From positions 64,001-110,027 of IMG/VR virus record IMGVR_UViG_3300044977_000070: DNA of 46,027 nt; one strand, given 5' to 3'. Below the pieces are notes generated by a model. The model made no database searches and was not told the DNA's origin. It saw only the letters and a program-made list of their open reading frames with translations. Below are positions 1,090 to 35,225 of this stretch, one piece after another. Source of the DNA: a virus. A program made the translations under genes and the position numbers. Each line of letters opens with the position of its first letter. Positions within the stretch are counted from its first letter, which is position 1.

Positions 1090-1800
1090 ATGAAAACGAA
1101 ACTCGCACTTGCCATCCTGCTTGCTTCCACGGCATTAGCGTCGGCAGCTGACCTTCCAGTAAAGGCGGCGCCATATACGCTAAGTTTGGATACTACAGGA
1201 TTGTATTTCGGCATCTGGTCCACCGGCGGTATGGGTTCGGTTCAGGGCTCTGCAGTCACAGTGACCGGCGTCAATCCGAACACGATCACCTCGACTGAGG
1301 CGGCGATTGGCGGGTTGGTAGGTTACTATTGGTCCATGCCGTCCACTCAGTTCTTCGCGATTGAGGGAATGTTGGGCTGGCAGAATGTCAACGGCAGTGC
1401 CCAAGGGTTCGCCTTCGATGGCCCCGTTACGGGAAAAATCCGGTTCATGACCGGTGCCCCGGTCTCGACTATCATGCAGCTTTTCCCAACGCTGTTTCCT
1501 TTCCCTGTACCGGGATTCCCGCCGAACGTTGGTAATATCACCAATATCAAACCGTATATCTATGGATCGCCTGACTTTGACGACGTTAGCTTGAATGTCG
1601 GTGCCAGCTCGGCTCGGACTTGGAGCGTATCGCCTGAAATTGGCGTCGGCATGCTAGGCCAGCTTAGCCCAACCACCGCGATTGACGTGTTCGCCGGCGC
1701 CAAGTTCCCCCAGAAGGGCGCATGCGTTGGATTTGAGGCCTCGGTGGCTTGCGCCGGTATGGGCACCACGGCCGTAGCCGGTGTTGCTATTAAGTGGTAG
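1090..1800 (+). CDS. Phage-encoded outer-membrane beta-barrel-like protein
   Basis: A 236-residue protein with a clear signal peptide (MKTKLALAILLASTALASAA, cleavage near residue 20) and mature N-terminus DLPVKAAP. That mature end is typical of porin-family proteins of Rhizobiales (Omp25/Omp31 type). The body is rich in Gly, Ser, Thr and aromatic residues and ends in a hydrophobic W (VAIKW), like many outer-membrane barrels. The start is chosen for its strong AAAGAGGAG ribosome binding site; an upstream ATG at 1027 would bury the signal peptide. It sits between endolysin and holin candidates, which suggests late expression or a lysogenic-conversion/exclusion role. Function is inferred only. 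Confidence 0.75.
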   Translation: MKTKLALAILLASTALASAADLPVKAAPYTLSLDTTGLYFGIWSTGGMGSVQGSAVTVTGVNPNTITSTEAAIGGLVGYYWSMPSTQFFAIEGMLGWQNVNGSAQGFAFDGPVTGKIRFMTGAPVSTIMQLFPTLFPFPVPGFPPNVGNITNIKPYIYGSPDFDDVSLNVGASSARTWSVSPEIGVGMLGQLSPTTAIDVFAGAKFPQKGACVGFEASVACAGMGTTAVAGVAIKW

Positions 1801-1810
1801 GGGGTGATCC

Positions 1811-2560
1811 ATGCTTCATTTTGGTAAAACCCCCGCGCGTCCCGGCGCAATGAAAATTGCGCTGGGGGACTATCTCAAAACCTCGCAGTTGCCGAAAGTT
1901 CCGCCACGGTTCGGCAACCTCGCCGCGTGGAATCATTGGCAATGGCAAATGCTCGCCAATGATCGGTACGGTTGCTGTGTGTGGTCCGGACAGGCGCATC
2001 AAATCATGATGTGGTGCGCGACGGAGGGCAACAAGACCGTACAATTTACGGACGATCAAATCCTCGGCCCGGAGGCGTACGGCTCAACTGGGTTCGTTGC
2101 GTCAGATCCTTCCACCGACAATGGCACCGATATGGTGACAGCATGTCAGTTTTGGAAGGACAACGGGCTCTTTGGGCATACCCTTATTGGGTTTGCTGAA
2201 GTAAAGCCCGCCAATATAGCGCTTACCGCGTTCCAGTTTGGATCGTGCGGGGTTGGGATTAGTCTCACGCAGGCAAACATGGATCAGTTCAACAATGCGG
2301 AGCCGTGGGACTATGTCGAGGGGTCGCCGACTCTTGGTGGGCACTACGTGCCAGCGATCACCAAGAATTCTCGTGGCAATCTTGTCGCCGTTACCTGGGG
2401 ACGTTTGCAACCTATGACTGACGCCTTCTTGGAGGCGCAATGCGACGAGGCTGTGTGTCAGTTGTCTCAGGATTGGCTCAACGTTCAGACTACGATTACG
2501 CCGCGCGGTCTCAAACTGACGGATTTGATCCACGACATGAAGACGTTGGCTAATTCCTAA
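1811..2560 (+). CDS. Hypothetical protein with papain-like cysteine peptidase features
   Basis: A 249-residue protein of a kind often seen as a hypothetical in phages and soil bacteria. It has a Cys-containing helix start (NDRYGCCVWSGQAH, C55/C56), a late GGHYVP segment (H178) and a following VTWGR strand. This order (Cys, then His, then an aromatic strand) resembles C39/papain-like folds, but activity is not shown. A DNGTDMVTACQFW segment lies between. The ribosome binding site is GGGGTG, and the gene follows the barrel protein by 10 bases. A short stem-loop (CCTCTAG/CTAGGGG, 2585-2603) follows without a T tract. Confidence 0.65.
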   Translation: MLHFGKTPARPGAMKIALGDYLKTSQLPKVPPRFGNLAAWNHWQWQMLANDRYGCCVWSGQAHQIMMWCATEGNKTVQFTDDQILGPEAYGSTGFVASDPSTDNGTDMVTACQFWKDNGLFGHTLIGFAEVKPANIALTAFQFGSCGVGISLTQANMDQFNNAEPWDYVEGSPTLGGHYVPAITKNSRGNLVAVTWGRLQPMTDAFLEAQCDEAVCQLSQDWLNVQTTITPRGLKLTDLIHDMKTLANS

Positions 2561-2664
2561 AGGGGCGCCCTGTGATCACCGAAGCCTCTAGTTTCGCTAG
2601 GGGTACTTAGTAGGCGGTCGTGGGGCGCTTCTTTCTCCTTTGGTAGTGTGAAAGAGAGGAAGTT

Positions 2665-3210
2665 ATGAAGCGGTTAGTTCCTATTTCTCTGACTTTGGCT
2701 TTGTTAAGCACGGCTGCTATGGCGCAGTTTTCAGAGGCGCCGGTGCTCGTTCCTGGGACTTCCCCTGTCGGTTCGCCGACGCTCGTCAATGTCGGATCGT
2801 TCAGCGCCGACGTCCTCAATTGGGTCATATCGGTAACCGTGCCGATCATGGGGGTGGTTATTACAGGGTGGCTAACCCGTCTGTTTCAGCAAGTCGGAAT
2901 CAATATGACGGATGCCCAACGCGCCCGCTTGCAGGAAATGGTTGTGAACGGAATCAATGCTGGTGCGGCGAAGGCGGAGGATTCTTTGAGAGGCGCCCCC
3001 CTTGTGGATGTCAAGAATGCGGCGGTGCAGCATGCGGTCGAATATGTCCAGGAGCATGGGGCGGACACGCTCAAGGCACTAGGATTTGACCCCCATGACC
3101 AGAAAACCGTTGAGGCAATCCAGGCCCGCGCCCTGTCGGCGATTGCCAATCCCGCCGTACCGACCGCCCCGTCCTTGAATGCCCCTATACCGTCCCTCAA
3201 AGCGGTATGA
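2665..3210 (+). CDS. Putative holin of the LLH type
   Basis: 181 residues: an N-terminal hydrophobic signal or membrane segment (residues 1-21), a second membrane segment (about 51-72, VLNWVISVTVPIMGVVITGW), then a soluble region with an alpha-helical domain (QRARLQEMVVNGINAGAAKA) and a Pro/Ala-rich tail. Membrane segment followed by an amphipathic helical domain with repeated Ala and acidic residues resembles the phage LLH holin family. Location after the endolysin supports a lysis role. The start has a GAGAGGAAG ribosome binding site. Confidence 0.6.
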   Translation: MKRLVPISLTLALLSTAAMAQFSEAPVLVPGTSPVGSPTLVNVGSFSADVLNWVISVTVPIMGVVITGWLTRLFQQVGINMTDAQRARLQEMVVNGINAGAAKAEDSLRGAPLVDVKNAAVQHAVEYVQEHGADTLKALGFDPHDQKTVEAIQARALSAIANPAVPTAPSLNAPIPSLKAV

Positions 3211-3370
3211 GGGGATATTTCCTGTCCTCCCTCCCCTTCCCCTAGGCCCCTACCCGTTACCGCATGGACGGCTTTGTTAGCAAGGGGCGTTGATAATTAG
3301 GATCGCTGTATAAAAGGGAACATCTATTTATATTTGGTGGATGTACGTCATAGGTAAAGGATCGGCGCAA

Positions 3371-3682
3371 ATGCCAGACCTCGGGTTGCTAGAACAGATT
3401 GGCGTCAGGATTCAACCTGCATTTGCGGGAATGATGGGAGGTATTGTTGGCGCATGGGCCGATGGCAACGCTGGTATTGGCGCATGGTTGGCATATGTAG
3501 GAGCAGGATGTCTGACGGCCAACTACCTTGCCGAGCCCGCTACGCGCGTGATCCCGGTAATGGTTAGTGAGGGCGTTGCTGGGTTTATTGTCGGGCTCGC
3601 AGCCCTCGCCATAGTGAGAACAATAATAGGATTAATAAATCGCTGGAAACCGGCATTGGGTAATGGAGGAAAGGCGCAATGA
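3371..3682 (+). CDS. Small membrane protein, holin or lysis accessory candidate
   Basis: About 103 residues with two or three hydrophobic segments (AFAGMMGGIVGAW, IGAWLAYVGAGCL and GVAGFIVGLAALAIVR), Gly/Ala-rich as in holins, and a short basic tail. The start at 3371 has AAAGGA about nine bases upstream; an in-frame ATG at 3341 would add ten residues and has its own GGTGG. The preceding 160 bases are AT-rich around 3290-3335 and may hold a promoter, but the spacing of candidate boxes is poor. The stop overlaps the next gene by four bases (ATGA). Confidence 0.6.
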   Translation: MPDLGLLEQIGVRIQPAFAGMMGGIVGAWADGNAGIGAWLAYVGAGCLTANYLAEPATRVIPVMVSEGVAGFIVGLAALAIVRTIIGLINRWKPALGNGGKAQ

Positions 3683-4038
3683 CGCTAGATACTCTTCTTC
3701 CACCGCATTACTGGAACTTTATTTTCCAGATGCTTTCGGTTATCGCTGCTGTCTTTGTCTTGTGGCAAATCAACACCTCCAAGCAGGTGGATGGCCTGCG
3801 TCACAGTCAACACCCTTCGCCTTGGTTCGCGGTGCGACGCATGGCGATGTTCCTCAAATTGTTGGCACTGATGTGGACGGTGATTTATGTGCATGACAGG
3901 GCTTGGCAGATATGGCCGCCAATCGTTGCCTTCATGGCGGCGTTTGATGTCTATATCCTGTCGGAGGTGCTGATCATGCGTGAAGACCTAAAGAAGCTTC
4001 GACGCATTAATGACAGCACCTCCCCCTTAGCCGCATAA
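3679..4038 (+). CDS. Small membrane protein of the lysis region
   Basis: 119 residues with hydrophobic segments near residues 11-29 (YWNFIFQMLSVIAAVFVLW), 56-72 and 82-98, ending in a charged helix (MREDLKKLRRIND). It starts inside the stop of the previous gene (ATGA), so the two are probably translationally coupled and may form a membrane complex. No family is recognised. It is the last + strand gene before the orientation switches. Confidence 0.6.
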   Translation: MTLDTLLPPHYWNFIFQMLSVIAAVFVLWQINTSKQVDGLRHSQHPSPWFAVRRMAMFLKLLALMWTVIYVHDRAWQIWPPIVAFMAAFDVYILSEVLIMREDLKKLRRINDSTSPLAA

Positions 4039-4847: not shown

Positions 4848-6697
4848 GTTATCCTCGAACCGCTCTCATCCTTGACGATTGTCACAACGTCCGTGAACTT
4901 GTCGCTTTCCACGGACATATGATCCACGTAGAAAATTGTCTTGTTTGTCTTTATCGCCCGGTCCGCGAGGTAGTCGCAGAGATCGCGGACGCCGGATTTT
5001 GACATGTGTCGGCTGGGTTCGTCCAACACCTCAAGATTGCAAACCACGCCTGCGTGGTTAAGCAGGATCTCAGATAGGGACAAGGCCCCGGCAATCCGCA
5101 GTCGCTGCCCAACCCCACCGCCCCAGCATTTCCATTTGACGGCCGCCTTATTGCGAGGGGACAGGACCGATACATGAAGTCCACGTTGCATTCCTCCGGA
5201 TTTCGTTTCCCTCTCGATATCATACTTGACCGTCCACCCATCCAGTCCTAAGTCAACCAGGATGGAGTTGGTGACGAACTCTAATTCTTTCAATACCTGA
5301 TCCACGACGAGCAGACGGATGTCCTTGAATCCTTTTATCCAGGGACGGGTTCTATCCAATGTACGCTGCGCCCTCGCTATGTCCGCCTCGATATCCTCAA
5401 CGACGCCTTTGAGTTCTTTTACGTCCGCCTTGAAACTCACATACTGCGCATGGTAAGTATTAGTTGCGCGTTCCGCCTCCTCAATCCGCTCCCGCATGTT
5501 CTTGACGTTTGCGTCCAATGTTGCGACGAGTCCGGAAAGACGTTGCAGCCCCGAGAAGGCGTCGTCCGCCTTCTCCTTAAACTTCGCCTCGCTCCCGCGA
5601 CTTTGTCCTATTGAGCGAATGAATGTCTCTATTTCCTTGGTGATTGCTTTGGGAACACCCTTCTCAATTTGCGCATTGAGGTTAGCGATCTCGCGTTTTA
5701 ATTCTTTTTTGTGCTTGTCCAGGCTGGTGCCGGTAATCTCCTGTCCGCAGGTTGGACACTCGTCCGCCTCGCCTAGGGATTTGAGTTCTTTCTCGCGGCG
5801 TTCCTTGTCGCGTTTTAGACTGCTGATCAACCCCTCGTGCCTCAACTTCTTTTCATGGGCCGCGTCATAGGACGCGCGAAGTTGACTAATCTCCTGTTGC
5901 AAGGCCTTTAGTTCAGTGCCGGCGCCGTCATAGGCAAGCGTCGCGTCGTCCTTGAATTTACCCTGTTCCTTTAACTCCTTTTGGGCCTCCGTAAGCTTTG
6001 CGGTGAGGGCGCGGATCGTTGCCTTGTTGCCCGCCTCCCACTCGTCGGATTGTTTCTTTACCCGCGTCATGTTGTGACGCGCGTCCTCCAGGGAGGCTTT
6101 GGTTGCTATCAGCTCGCCGTCGTATTTCGCCAGTTTCTTTTCGAGGCGATCGCACTCCTCCTTGGCGAATTGGGATCGGGTGTCCCAGCGGGCGAGATTC
6201 AACCCCTCCCCGAATAGGGCCATGGCCTCCCGGGGTTCGAGATCAAAAAATAGGGGTTGTCCCTGCCCCATAAGGATCGTGTGACAGAAGACGAATTTCG
6301 ACATTTGGAGCAGGCGGTCTATGTCGCCCTGCCCGCATGTCTTGCCGTCCAATTTCAGGGCATTAGGGACGGTACAACGTTCGACGTCCCTCTCCTTGCC
6401 GTCCATGAGAAACCCTACCCGTACCGCGGTAGAGGCGTCCTCACCCACATTCCAGGCGTCCCAGGGACGAACGTCGGGGGACCGCAGCCCGTCAATCGTC
6501 GATCCGTACAGGCACCAGCATAGGGCATTCCATAGGGTCGTCTTGCCGGCGTCATTCGCCTGAAGGGAAGGTTCGAGCCTATTCCTTCCTCTCATGAAGA
6601 CGAGTCCGGCGCCGCTGTCCGCGAGGGCGAACTTGTGCTTCCCTATGAAGGTCTGGAAGTTCTGGACTGTCAGATTTTCGAACTGAAGTGTTGTCAT
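4838..6697 (-). CDS. SbcC/Rad50-like recombination endonuclease subunit (T4 gp46-like)
   Basis: A 619-residue SMC-type ATPase. The N-terminal lobe has a Walker A variant ending NDAGKTT (residues 48-54). A long coiled coil follows, interrupted near the middle by a zinc hook (ECPTCGQE). The C-terminal lobe carries the ABC signature region (WGGGVGQRLRIAGALSL) and a Walker B (LEVLDEPSRHMS). In T4-type phages gp46 works with the gp47 nuclease to resect DNA ends for recombination-dependent replication; the partner here is at 7046-8035. The start has a weak ribosome binding site, so coupling to upstream translation is possible. Confidence 0.9.
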   Translation of the reverse strand: MTTLQFENLTVQNFQTFIGKHKFALADSGAGLVFMRGRNRLEPSLQANDAGKTTLWNALCWCLYGSTIDGLRSPDVRPWDAWNVGEDASTAVRVGFLMDGKERDVERCTVPNALKLDGKTCGQGDIDRLLQMSKFVFCHTILMGQGQPLFFDLEPREAMALFGEGLNLARWDTRSQFAKEECDRLEKKLAKYDGELIATKASLEDARHNMTRVKKQSDEWEAGNKATIRALTAKLTEAQKELKEQGKFKDDATLAYDGAGTELKALQQEISQLRASYDAAHEKKLRHEGLISSLKRDKERREKELKSLGEADECPTCGQEITGTSLDKHKKELKREIANLNAQIEKGVPKAITKEIETFIRSIGQSRGSEAKFKEKADDAFSGLQRLSGLVATLDANVKNMRERIEEAERATNTYHAQYVSFKADVKELKGVVEDIEADIARAQRTLDRTRPWIKGFKDIRLLVVDQVLKELEFVTNSILVDLGLDGWTVKYDIERETKSGGMQRGLHVSVLSPRNKAAVKWKCWGGGVGQRLRIAGALSLSEILLNHAGVVCNLEVLDEPSRHMSKSGVRDLCDYLADRAIKTNKTIFYVDHMSVESDKFTDVVTIVKDESGSRITWT

Positions 6698-32578: not shown

Positions 32579-35023
32579 TTAGGGGGCCTTAATGTCGAAT
32601 TCCCCGCGGACGATCGCCTTGAAAAGATCGCCCCCCTCCTTGTGCCATTTCAGTATCGCCTGGTCGAATGTCCCCCGCATGACGAAATCCGTTAGGAACT
32701 TATGCCTAATGGTGCTGCCCTGTCGAATGTAGCGACGTTCGCATTGCTTGCGCATGATCACGGGGACGGGGGATTCGAAAAATAACCCATATCGTGCCGC
32801 CTGAAGATTTAACCCGTATCCAAATGCATTACTCAATATCAATCCCTGAACTTCGTCCTTGTCGTATTTCGCCCGTTCGGTGTCGGGGTCCTTCGTGCCG
32901 CCCCACAGGTGCGCGCACCTAATCCCCATGTCGTGCAGTCGATTGAAGACGATCTTCCCCGAAAGGTTAAAATCATGGAATACAATGAACTTGTGCTTGG
33001 CGGGGATGCGCTCAACAAAACTTGCCAATAAATCCAGTTTTGGATTTGTCGGGAATACGACCTGCGATTTGCCATTATCATCCTTGAACCCCAGCCAGCC
33101 GGAGGAGAGTTGCCGCAGACGAATGAAGCTGTTTTTCATTCCCGCGTTGTCGTGTCCCTTTTGCGCGCGTTTGAGCTCAGCAAGCTGTGCCTCGAAATAT
33201 TCATAGGTTTTCTCAGGCATGCGAATCGATTTGACGTCCCGCAGCACGGAGGGTAGATCCGCCTCGTCCGCCTCATAGTTTATCGTGCAATGTCCAATGA
33301 ACTTGTGCAGGGTCTCCGTCATGGATTCCTTGAACTTGTATTCCCGCCCGCCCCAGTAGTTCATTTTCTCCGTAAAGAAGGCAGCACGGAACAGGCCCAG
33401 GGTCTCGCCGAGGCTATGTCCGTCGTCCAACAGATTGATTTGTCCCCATAGGTCGGTAGGGTCGCGCCCGAACGGCGTCCCTGTCAATTCGATAAGCATG
33501 CACGCGTCCTTGCCGACCTTCTTACAGATTCGATTGGCCAGCGTGCCACGAGTTTTAATCAAAGTCGACTCATCTAGGACGAGGCCGTTTACCTTCTTCA
33601 TGAGTTGCTTGACGAGCGGCAGATTCGGCTTGAGTTTATTCTTGCCCTTCTTGTTCTTGACGATCGTACTGCATAGTCGTGCGAATCCGCCATATGTCTC
33701 GACTATTACGGGCGCTGTCGTATTGTCCAACGCCTCCCATTTGTCCTTGGTCGAGCCCCGCAATACGAGGTAGTCAAGGGAGGTGTGTTTCTCGATTTCC
33801 TGCGCCCATTCCGTCTTATTGGTTCTATTGGGGACGAGGACGAGACAGGATTTGAGTTCCTTGAGCTTGCGGCGATAGCAAATGAGGGCAAGAGCGAGCA
33901 GCGTTTTTCCCATCCCACAGTTATGATTGCAGATGCCATGTGCAATGTAGTTTTCATGAATTGGCACATGAAGATCATAATAGACGTCTGTTCGAATGTA
34001 CGATATTCTTATAACGGTGTCAAATTGAAAGGAATTATTAGATGCCGAAAGGTTATGATGCTGATGGAAAGCCCCTTGGTCGCAAACGCTTGATGGGGAA
34101 TGTATCAGATCGGGACTTGGAGAAGCTGATTGCAGAGGGTTGGCGTATAGGCGAGTTGGGGAAGAAATATGGAGTGAGTCGTCAAACTGTGTTGACGGAG
34201 ATTCGTCGCCGTGGAGTTCCTTATTCCAGCTATAAGGGTTTACTGAAGGAGCGCAATGGCTCATGGAAGGGGGGTCGAATGAAAGGCAGCGACGGTTATT
34301 GGTTGCGTCTTCAACCAGATCACCCGTATGCGAGAAAGAGTGGGTATGTTTTGGAGAGTCGGCTTGTGATGGAAAAGAAGTTGGGACGGCATCTTTTACC
34401 AACAGAGGTTGTAGATCATATTGATGGGGATATTGACAACAACTCCCTTGGGAATCTTCGTCTATTTCGATCGAATAGTCGGCATTTGGGGAAAACTTTG
34501 AAAGGGAAGGTCCCTCATTGGACGAAGGATGGGAAACGTCGAATTTTGGAAGCCGTTCGAAAGCCGCGAAGTCGGCGCAAGAAACCCAACCACGCGAGGT
34601 CAAGAAAATATGACGTTTCGTAACTGTTATTTTCTTCCCTGAAGCAAATTCTACAGTATAAAGTTCGGCTGGTTCCTTTTGGAATGGACAAGATGCGGGG
34701 ACAAGACGCAAGCCTTGTCCCGTCAAAGACCAGACCTTTATGCTACGCCCTTCCCTATAAAGTTGATCGATTCGGATAGCCCCTCTGTCTGTCTCGATTT
34801 CCGTTTCCCCAGCGACACAGTCAAGGTAATAGCCGAACTTCTTTACTTTGGCCCCGAGAATGAAGCTGGCGCGTTGGTGCAGAAATAACCTGTGCCAGAT
34901 AGGCGGCTTGACAGGCAGTTTTTGCATTTGCTCGTCAAGCGCGTCCTTGGGATATCTTTTGAACCCGCGCCAATCTCCGCGTTGTCGTTGTAGGAACGCC
35001 TTAACCGCATTATTGCTTATCAT
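32579..35023 (-). CDS. SNF2-type (UvsW-like) helicase interrupted by an intein
   Basis: 814 residues, of which about 514 remain after splicing. Extein features: LHQRASFILGAK before the P-loop, Walker A CGMGKT (after the intein), LVLVPNRTNKTEWAQEI, VIVETYGGFARL, Walker B VLDESTLIKTRG, ELTGTPFGRDPTDLWGQ, and C-terminal helicase motifs FIVFHDFNLSGK, LILSNAFGYGLNLQAA and CERRYIRQGS. Such helicases process replication and recombination intermediates in phages. The ATG at 35023 overlaps the upstream small gene by 14 bases; codons before it are shadow. The intein occupies residues 69-368. Confidence 0.9.
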   Translation of the reverse strand: MISNNAVKAFLQRQRGDWRGFKRYPKDALDEQMQKLPVKPPIWHRLFLHQRASFILGAKVKKFGYYLDCVAGETEIETDRGAIRIDQLYREGRSIKVWSLTGQGLRLVPASCPFQKEPAELYTVEFASGKKITVTKRHIFLTSRGWVSCADFAAFERLPKFDVSHPSSNEGPSLSKFSPNADYSIEIDEDSQGSCCQYPHQYDLQPLLVKDAVPTSFPSQADSPKHTHSFSHTGDLVEDATNNRRCLSFDPPSMSHCAPSVNPYSWNKELHGDESPSTQFDDSLHISSPTRLYANPLQSASPSPDLIHSPSSVCDQGAFHQHHNLSASNNSFQFDTVIRISYIRTDVYYDLHVPIHENYIAHGICNHNCGMGKTLLALALICYRRKLKELKSCLVLVPNRTNKTEWAQEIEKHTSLDYLVLRGSTKDKWEALDNTTAPVIVETYGGFARLCSTIVKNKKGKNKLKPNLPLVKQLMKKVNGLVLDESTLIKTRGTLANRICKKVGKDACMLIELTGTPFGRDPTDLWGQINLLDDGHSLGETLGLFRAAFFTEKMNYWGGREYKFKESMTETLHKFIGHCTINYEADEADLPSVLRDVKSIRMPEKTYEYFEAQLAELKRAQKGHDNAGMKNSFIRLRQLSSGWLGFKDDNGKSQVVFPTNPKLDLLASFVERIPAKHKFIVFHDFNLSGKIVFNRLHDMGIRCAHLWGGTKDPDTERAKYDKDEVQGLILSNAFGYGLNLQAARYGLFFESPVPVIMRKQCERRYIRQGSTIRHKFLTDFVMRGTFDQAILKWHKEGGDLFKAIVRGEFDIKAP
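33920..34819 (-). mobile_element. Intein in the helicase P-loop
   Basis: 300 codons. The N-terminus is Cys in CVAGETEIETDRGAI (block A), block B is TVTKRHIFLTSRGW, block F is YYDLHVPIHENYIAHG, and the C-terminus is ICNHN followed by Cys of the extein (CGMGKT). Insertion between D68 and the P-loop Cys is a classic intein site. Between blocks B and F lie about 190 residues rich in Ser, Pro and His with no endonuclease motifs; this stretch is the antisense of an HNH gene on the + strand. Confidence 0.92.
34042..34623 (+). CDS. HNH homing endonuclease encoded antisense inside the intein
   Basis: 193 residues. An N-terminal helix-turn-helix (SDRDLEKLIAEGWRIGELGK, KYGVSRQTVLTEIRRRG) is followed by the HNH core: RNGSWKGGRMKGSDGYW, SRLVMEKKLGRHLLP, VVDHIDGDIDNNSLGNLRL (H126, N133/N137 region) and SNSRHLGK. 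The tail is Lys/Arg-rich. AAAGGA lies eight bases before the ATG, so it has its own translation start. It is fully contained within the intein on the opposite strand. It would cut intein-free helicase genes and drive homing of the intein. Confidence 0.9.
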   Translation: MPKGYDADGKPLGRKRLMGNVSDRDLEKLIAEGWRIGELGKKYGVSRQTVLTEIRRRGVPYSSYKGLLKERNGSWKGGRMKGSDGYWLRLQPDHPYARKSGYVLESRLVMEKKLGRHLLPTEVVDHIDGDIDNNSLGNLRLFRSNSRHLGKTLKGKVPHWTKDGKRRILEAVRKPRSRRKKPNHARSRKYDVS

Positions 35024-35225
35024 GGAACTCGCACTTATAGGAGGTAGCGCGCACGGGTGGGGAAACGTCCTTGAATACAAATCCTACAATCACGTCAGCA
35101 CCGGCAAGGCATTCCGCCTCCGTCTTGTATCCTGTCTTTGATGTCCAAGTATCTTCATGAACCGTACAGCGGCCAAATAGGCAGAAGGCAGTTGTGAATG
35201 CGTAGGTCACGACGAGATAGTACAT
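35010..35225 (-). CDS. Small secreted or membrane Cys-containing protein
   Basis: 71 residues with an N-terminal hydrophobic signal (MYYLVVTYAFTTAFCLFG) and further cysteines (RCTVHED, EAECLAG, YKCEFH), so it is probably exported and disulphide-bonded. It has GTAGGAGGAACG upstream. The downstream helicase start overlaps its last codons. Related in layout to the 35324 gene. Confidence 0.6.
   Translation of the reverse strand: MYYLVVTYAFTTAFCLFGRCTVHEDTWTSKTGYKTEAECLAGADVIVGFVFKDVSPPVRATSYKCEFHDKQ

Follow-up and report, generated by a model that had tools for sequence, protein, structure and literature searches.

A contiguous intein of phage P-loop genes with an HNH endonuclease gene on the opposite strand

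The window, by which we mean the whole stretch of DNA analysed here (46,027 nucleotides), comes from a virus record in IMG/VR that is 110,027 bases long in total. On its minus strand lies a helicase gene that carries an intein, and the plus strand of the same DNA encodes an HNH endonuclease. The features are as follows, with positions counted from the first letter of the window.

32579..35080, minus strand: helicase host gene of the SNF2/ResIII type (phrog_62), 833 aa, with the intein inside Walker A
34820..35080, minus strand: coding part of the N-extein, 87 residues, ending in ...GYYLD
33920..34819, minus strand: intein of 300 residues, CVAGETEIE ... ICNHN and then Cys+1, delimited by profiles and motifs
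34529..34819, minus strand: N-terminal Hint part, residues 1-97, pLDDT about 95 or more at residues 1-90
34610..34621, minus strand: block B, TKRH, residues 67-70, under the 3' end of the HNH gene
34028..34528, minus strand: filler, residues 98-264, rich in Ser, Pro and His, predicted to be disordered, the back-strand translation of the HNH gene
33920..34027, minus strand: C-terminal Hint part, residues 265-300, terminating in His299-Asn300
33902..33919, minus strand: Cys+1 and the remainder of Walker A (CGMGKT), directly past the intein
34029..34033, plus strand: Shine-Dalgarno-like AAGGA, 8 nt upstream of the HNH ATG
34042..34623, plus strand: HNH endonuclease gene, 193 aa, with an N-terminal helix-turn-helix, an HNH core and a basic C-terminal tail
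34414..34485, plus strand: HNH motif, Asp125-His126, Asn134, Asn138, Asn145 and His148, conserved in the family

The helicase ORF is recognized by the SNF2-rel_dom profile (E=2.4e-17), by ResIII/DEAD helicase profiles and by the phrog_62 DNA helicase profile (E=1.3e-57). Helicase residues 88-387 constitute the intein, for which the matching profiles are Intein_splicing (E=2.1e-9), intein_Nterm (E=8.9e-10) and intein_Cterm (E=4e-4). The first-pass annotation, made from the bare sequence, had proposed splicing blocks at both ends of this segment, and its boundaries turned out to be exact. The spliced helicase (533 aa) aligns in one piece with uninterrupted phage helicases (96-98% coverage, 31-32% identity), from which it follows that the insertion splits Walker A (LD/CGMGKT, the slash marking the junction); as the alignment runs through the splice junction, the insertion is precise and in frame and leaves an intact host protein. 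A query with the whole helicase for close relatives in viral contigs returned no match.

The intein displays the marks of class 1 elements, namely Cys1, T67KRH70, His299-Asn300 and Cys+1, and His70 of block B is invariant across the family of inteins with an antisense HNH gene described below. An AlphaFold2 model built with 29 related inteins as input has pLDDT values of about 95 or more at residues 1-90 and 271-300, and of about 50 or less over most of residues 101-260. The predicted Hint fold matches the SspDnaB and NpuDnaB mini-inteins in Foldseek searches, with a TM-score to the target of up to 0.85 (NpuDnaB), and the family profile retrieves the same DnaB mini-inteins by sequence. The filler, the Ser/Pro/His-rich centre noted at first pass, amounts to about 165 residues and lies between the N- and C-terminal Hint parts, in the loop that is the conserved insertion site of endonucleases in inteins (PMC6801210).

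The intein's own frame holds no endonuclease, as had been claimed from the outset; profile searches of the two strands recovered both domains, Hint on the minus strand and HNH on the plus strand only. The plus-strand ORF matches HNH_3 (E=1.5e-7, above the profile cut-off) and phrog_10730 (E=1.7e-25), in keeping with the original description of a complete gene with helix-turn-helix, HNH core and ribosome-binding site. It spans intein residues 66-260 and so covers nearly the whole filler, where the first-pass annotation had placed it, but also block B, which sits within its 3' end; the overlap therefore exceeds the filler and enters the N-terminal splicing domain. A phmmer search of the window HNH protein against PDB sequences produced no match, and the best hit of a fold search, I-HmuI, was weak (E=0.22). 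At residue 106 (codon 34357-34359) the window protein has Ser in place of the His found in all of the 146 other aligned members (the EHRLV motif). Judging from sequence alone, this substitution may weaken the window enzyme, whose cleavage activity is itself an inference, and because Ser106 replaces the family His the activity of this particular member is less sure. A promoter scan detected no sigma-70-like promoter on the plus strand upstream of the window HNH gene and gave matches on the minus strand only, near the background level.

Several known kinds of element were considered as the identity of the insertion and rejected. A group I or group II intron with an antisense endonuclease gene is ruled out by the open host frame and by a search of positions 33700-35100 against Rfam, in which no RNA family, group I introns included, matched up to E=1. 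A split intein or fractured gene is incompatible with the single 833-aa ORF, and with both Hint halves being in one ORF at 148 loci. A homing intein with an in-frame endonuclease domain is likewise eliminated, as the intein frame lacks an endonuclease and the HNH lies on the opposite strand.

Relatives were gathered from phage records and from viral and genome contigs, and then with Hint and HNH profiles of our own. Among the HNH relatives in this census at least 148 distinct genes, forming 115 clusters at 90% identity, lie antisense inside a single intein ORF with both Hint halves, and none lies in sense orientation inside such an intein. The remainder comprises two cases with the Hint halves in different ORFs (L022 and L251), two with one half only (L221 and L252) and 61 HNH genes with no Hint nearby. 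The phase of the HNH gene relative to the intein is identical in all 148, the apparent deviation of one locus (L191) being an orientation artefact of the formula. Cys1 is present in 146 of the 148 inteins, Ser, Thr or Cys occupies the +1 position in every one, and the insertion is beside GK[S/T] in 139; the catalytic HNH residues are retained in all 147 rows checked. At loci scoring at least 90 bits the antisense frame is open across the HNH match in 117 of 117, the stop of L022 falling at its very edge. Relatives with a broken frame had been named as potential refutation, and the intein frame is broken in only two of about 150: L022 has one stop, and in L251 (up to position 4979), where intein ends and an HNH gene in antisense lie in an AAA ATPase gene, a frameshift in the filler represents decay or a sequencing error. 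At L252, on a contig shared with L089, the antisense HNH gene and the C-terminal half are present and the N-terminal half appears to be partly deleted. No HNH gene antisense in an intein emerged from a plasmid search, none of the actinobacteriophage HNH matches examined was in such an arrangement, and seven further phage HNH matches that were checked (L292-L298) have no Hint near them.

Most hosts of the family are terminase large subunits, and the remainder are other P-loop ATPases. The layout of the window recurs in the terminase large subunit genes of the Pectobacterium phages Ymer, Abuela, Sabo, Koroua, Amona, Taid and Pappous and of Dickeya phage Setonix, in Pseudoalteromonas phage PHS3, where the annotation shows a truncated terminase and an HNH gene, and in prophages of E. 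coli and Enterobacter. Its presence in isolated phages and bacterial chromosomes excludes the assembly error that had been held out as a way in which the first description might fail. Clustering of the exteins by similarity places 123 members in one group, whose tested members match Terminase_3 or Terminase_6, some having no Pfam match in the extein, and 13 in another, which Pfam did not recognize in the only member tested (L032). Other hosts include a clamp loader resembling DNA polymerase III delta' (L090, with L194 and L195 in the same extein cluster), an SMC-like ATPase (L213), an AAA_24 ATPase (L271), a TraG/TraD-like protein (L204), and helicases in the window, L266 and L200. The nearest parallel of the window is L266, in which a similar intein, again with its HNH gene in antisense, interrupts a helicase at the same point (FAD/CGLGKT). 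One terminase ORF that carries an intein of this family (L038:452-3976, minus strand) has in addition a LAGLIDADG_3 match around residues 1023-1061, suggesting that the gene contains a further intein of the conventional kind.

That both strands are open over the HNH gene, as originally reported, was evaluated by holding the HNH protein fixed and shuffling its synonymous codons. In the window the antisense frame has 0 stops against 4.4 expected on average (p=0.0025), and over 88 distinct loci the intein frame has 0 against 601.5 expected, while the remaining two antisense phases contain 736 and 965 stops at the same loci; the 88-locus set requires both Hint halves in one ORF, and the single-stop locus L022 is therefore left out. 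In this phase Phe followed by a codon starting with A unavoidably creates an antisense stop, and this succession occurs in 0 of 323 instances in the family versus 124 of 390 in free-standing relatives; Ile before A is coded by ATA in 75 of 75 cases in the family. Substitutions in ten independent pairs (NG86) divide the element in a corresponding manner. In the filler dN/dS is 0.12 in the HNH frame and 2.50 in the intein frame, in the DNA coding only for Hint it is 0.08-0.11 in the intein frame, and in the doubly used stretch of the N-terminal Hint part it is 0.26 in the intein frame and 1.22 in the HNH frame, indicating that the HNH tail there follows the intein. The codon-position pattern differs between filler and Hint-only DNA (p=4e-73), the filler following HNH codons and the splicing domain following intein codons, a test of both frames that the first-pass annotation had proposed. 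Thus the HNH gene is under purifying selection and, beyond the absence of stops, no message at the protein level is detectable in the filler; a small extra role for it is not excluded, despite its lack of conserved sequence. The architecture and the dual coding are hence demonstrated computationally, and the first-pass reading of the element passed each of the computational tests.

The HNH genes start mostly 107-143 nt inside the C-terminal end of the intein, with ATG in 87 of 88, and a Shine-Dalgarno-like motif precedes 56 of these 88 starts (64%), as against 20% of random positions. These sequence features support separate translation of the HNH protein from a putative plus-strand message. 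With regard to mobility, the TerL gene of a prophage in E. coli MEI003 is occupied (VAGFG/C...HN/SGKTW), the closely related TerL of E. coli ET729 has an uninterrupted site, and most of the element is found in only one of 782 E. coli genomes with a related TerL. This occupied and empty pair fits a mobile element; homing is an inference here, and no homing was observed. The MEI003 locus (L191, NZ_CP071263.1 151257-153544) is annotated at NCBI as an incomplete terminase pseudogene missing its N-terminus next to a normal HNH gene; the terminase ORF is actually continuous, with 802 codons from stop to stop, and has near its C-terminus a 29-residue in-frame tandem duplication that is absent in ET729. 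In PHS3 (L002, KX912252.1) the terminase is annotated at 1655-2830, the true ORF being 1655-3781, and the annotated protein lacks the N-terminal part because the intein went unrecognised.

We consider it very probable that these elements are mobile inteins with a homing endonuclease that is produced separately, from the opposite strand; splicing, cutting and homing are all inferences, which rest on the motifs, the signs of selection and the occupied and empty site. In the proposed scheme the HNH gene is nested in the loop where other inteins hold their in-frame endonuclease domain. The minus-strand helicase mRNA would be translated through the entire intein, and the Hint halves would fold around a disordered linker without meaning of its own, self-splice and restore Walker A. 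A separate plus-strand transcript, equipped with a ribosome-binding site of its own, would yield the HNH protein; alleles without the intein would be cleaved by it at the P-loop codons, and repair would copy the intein and the HNH gene as a unit.

It is conceivable that the HNH enzyme is functional but does not serve homing, and merely shelters in the intein while cutting elsewhere, for instance in the exclusion of competing phages, a role in which phage HNH genes can act (PMC6669764). The existence of closely related free-standing HNH genes outside inteins (L222 and L239) is consistent with such a role, but in many different host genes every antisense member has its HNH gene inside the element, the insertion is nearly always at the conserved P-loop codons and the site is polymorphic between occupied and empty, so that we regard this possibility as improbable. 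We give no more than slight credence to the proposal that the intein is real and the HNH gene has become a passenger or a decayed remnant, with selection acting on splicing only. Decay of endonucleases is common in mini-inteins, and the window HNH protein does lack one widely conserved His; against this, the low dN/dS of the HNH frame in the filler, the catalytic residues kept throughout the aligned rows, and the maintained start position and Shine-Dalgarno motif all speak for a gene still under selection. Finally, long antisense ORFs do arise by chance in GC-rich coding DNA and the window is itself an IMG/VR contig, but a fortuitously open second frame or a misassembly can be set aside in the face of 148 distinct loci in a single phase, the complete lack of stops where about six hundred are expected, matched Hint blocks at both ends and isolate genomes with the same layout.

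As to the origin of the homing inteins that we favor, a single event is probable by inference, namely the insertion of an HNH gene into a mini-intein in reverse orientation, since all members share one phase and one position. Thereafter the filler has been kept free of stops and nothing more, with the HNH gene and the Hint ends each selected in its own frame; this the stop and substitution data do show. A possible benefit, which is speculation, is that expression of the endonuclease would become independent of the timing and level of an essential host gene. With somewhat less assurance than for mobility itself, we think it likely that these elements form a distinct, undescribed class of homing inteins, which stems from one founding event, has spread over the P-loop genes of numerous phages and, by using the opposite strand, uncouples expression of the endonuclease from translation of the host gene. 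Pairwise distances of Hint and HNH are significantly but only moderately correlated (Mantel, r=0.38), which leaves room for some exchange of parts. The correlation of HNH with TerL distances is higher (r=0.64); HNH sequences thus track TerL, the trees do not show recent mobility, and the claim of co-descent is limited to phase and position. In the HNH tree the antisense members are mostly together, with three label changes and weak deep support (bootstrap 3-5), and L105 and L115, both checked as free-standing, fall near or inside antisense groups. At L105 (1625-3806) the free-standing HNH gene directly overlaps an SNF2-type helicase gene at its end; that helicase gene, of the same type as the host gene in the window, is uninterrupted. 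The close relatives L222 (214 bits) and L239 (197 bits) have no Hint and their antisense frame is not open; their closeness makes escape from, or donation to, inteins possible.

Conventional homing inteins such as PI-SceI share with the present elements the Hint domain, insertion in a conserved ATPase motif and an endonuclease at the loop between N- and C-terminal Hint parts, but here the endonuclease is a gene of its own on the other strand and the in-frame residues are disordered filler. Fractured genes, in which the halves of a split intein are separated by a free-standing endonuclease gene, likewise encode the enzyme on its own between intein halves, whereas the window intein and its host protein form one continuous reading frame. 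The ShiLan domain of mycobacteriophage methylases contains a same-strand, out-of-frame HNH gene and no splicing domain (Arsenault, Gosselin and Gogarten 2025, PMC11855218). It resembles the window element in concealing a related HNH (E about 1e-7) within an insertion that is open in the host frame, and a ShiLan locus (L291) was confirmed to have the HNH on the same strand in another frame and gave no Hint match; the window HNH, in contrast, is antisense and within a true intein, and the opposite strand together with the presence of Hint rules out a ShiLan-type insertion as its identity. In Didymium squamulosum the gene for I-DsqI lies antisense in a nuclear group I intron, is expressed, and its product cuts the empty site (PMC9548176). 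This system too places an antisense endonuclease gene inside a splicing element, but that element is an RNA intron in rDNA, where no protein frame has to be maintained on the host strand, and the enzyme is of the His-Cys type. Both the hidden HNH genes of the ShiLan type and the endonuclease genes that lie antisense in group I introns are near precedents. Inteins have been described in the ATPase domain of mycobacteriophage terminases (PMC5050341), and a word search of that paper found no opposite, reverse or overlapping arrangement. We found no description of an antisense endonuclease inside a contiguous intein in the open literature searched, in which papers on non-canonical inteins were only partly covered. 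The suggestion made at first pass that the arrangement may be new stands to that extent, novelty being likely but not proven, but the window is not unique and belongs to a widespread family.

If true, these elements would represent a new architecture of mobile inteins, with the splicing element and the endonuclease on opposite strands of the same DNA. As each frame is free to drift where the other is selected, they would allow overlapping genes to be studied in a clean experiment of nature, which has a simple signature specific to the phase, the avoidance of Phe before codons starting with A. Annotation pipelines misread such genes, as with the MEI003 terminase labelled an incomplete pseudogene and the shortened PHS3 terminase. 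The occurrence of the elements in cultivable phages and prophages makes the hypothesis directly testable. More generally, they would bear on the invasion of inteins by endonucleases at a single conserved loop, and on the ways in which selfish genes of phages can escape dependence on late host genes.
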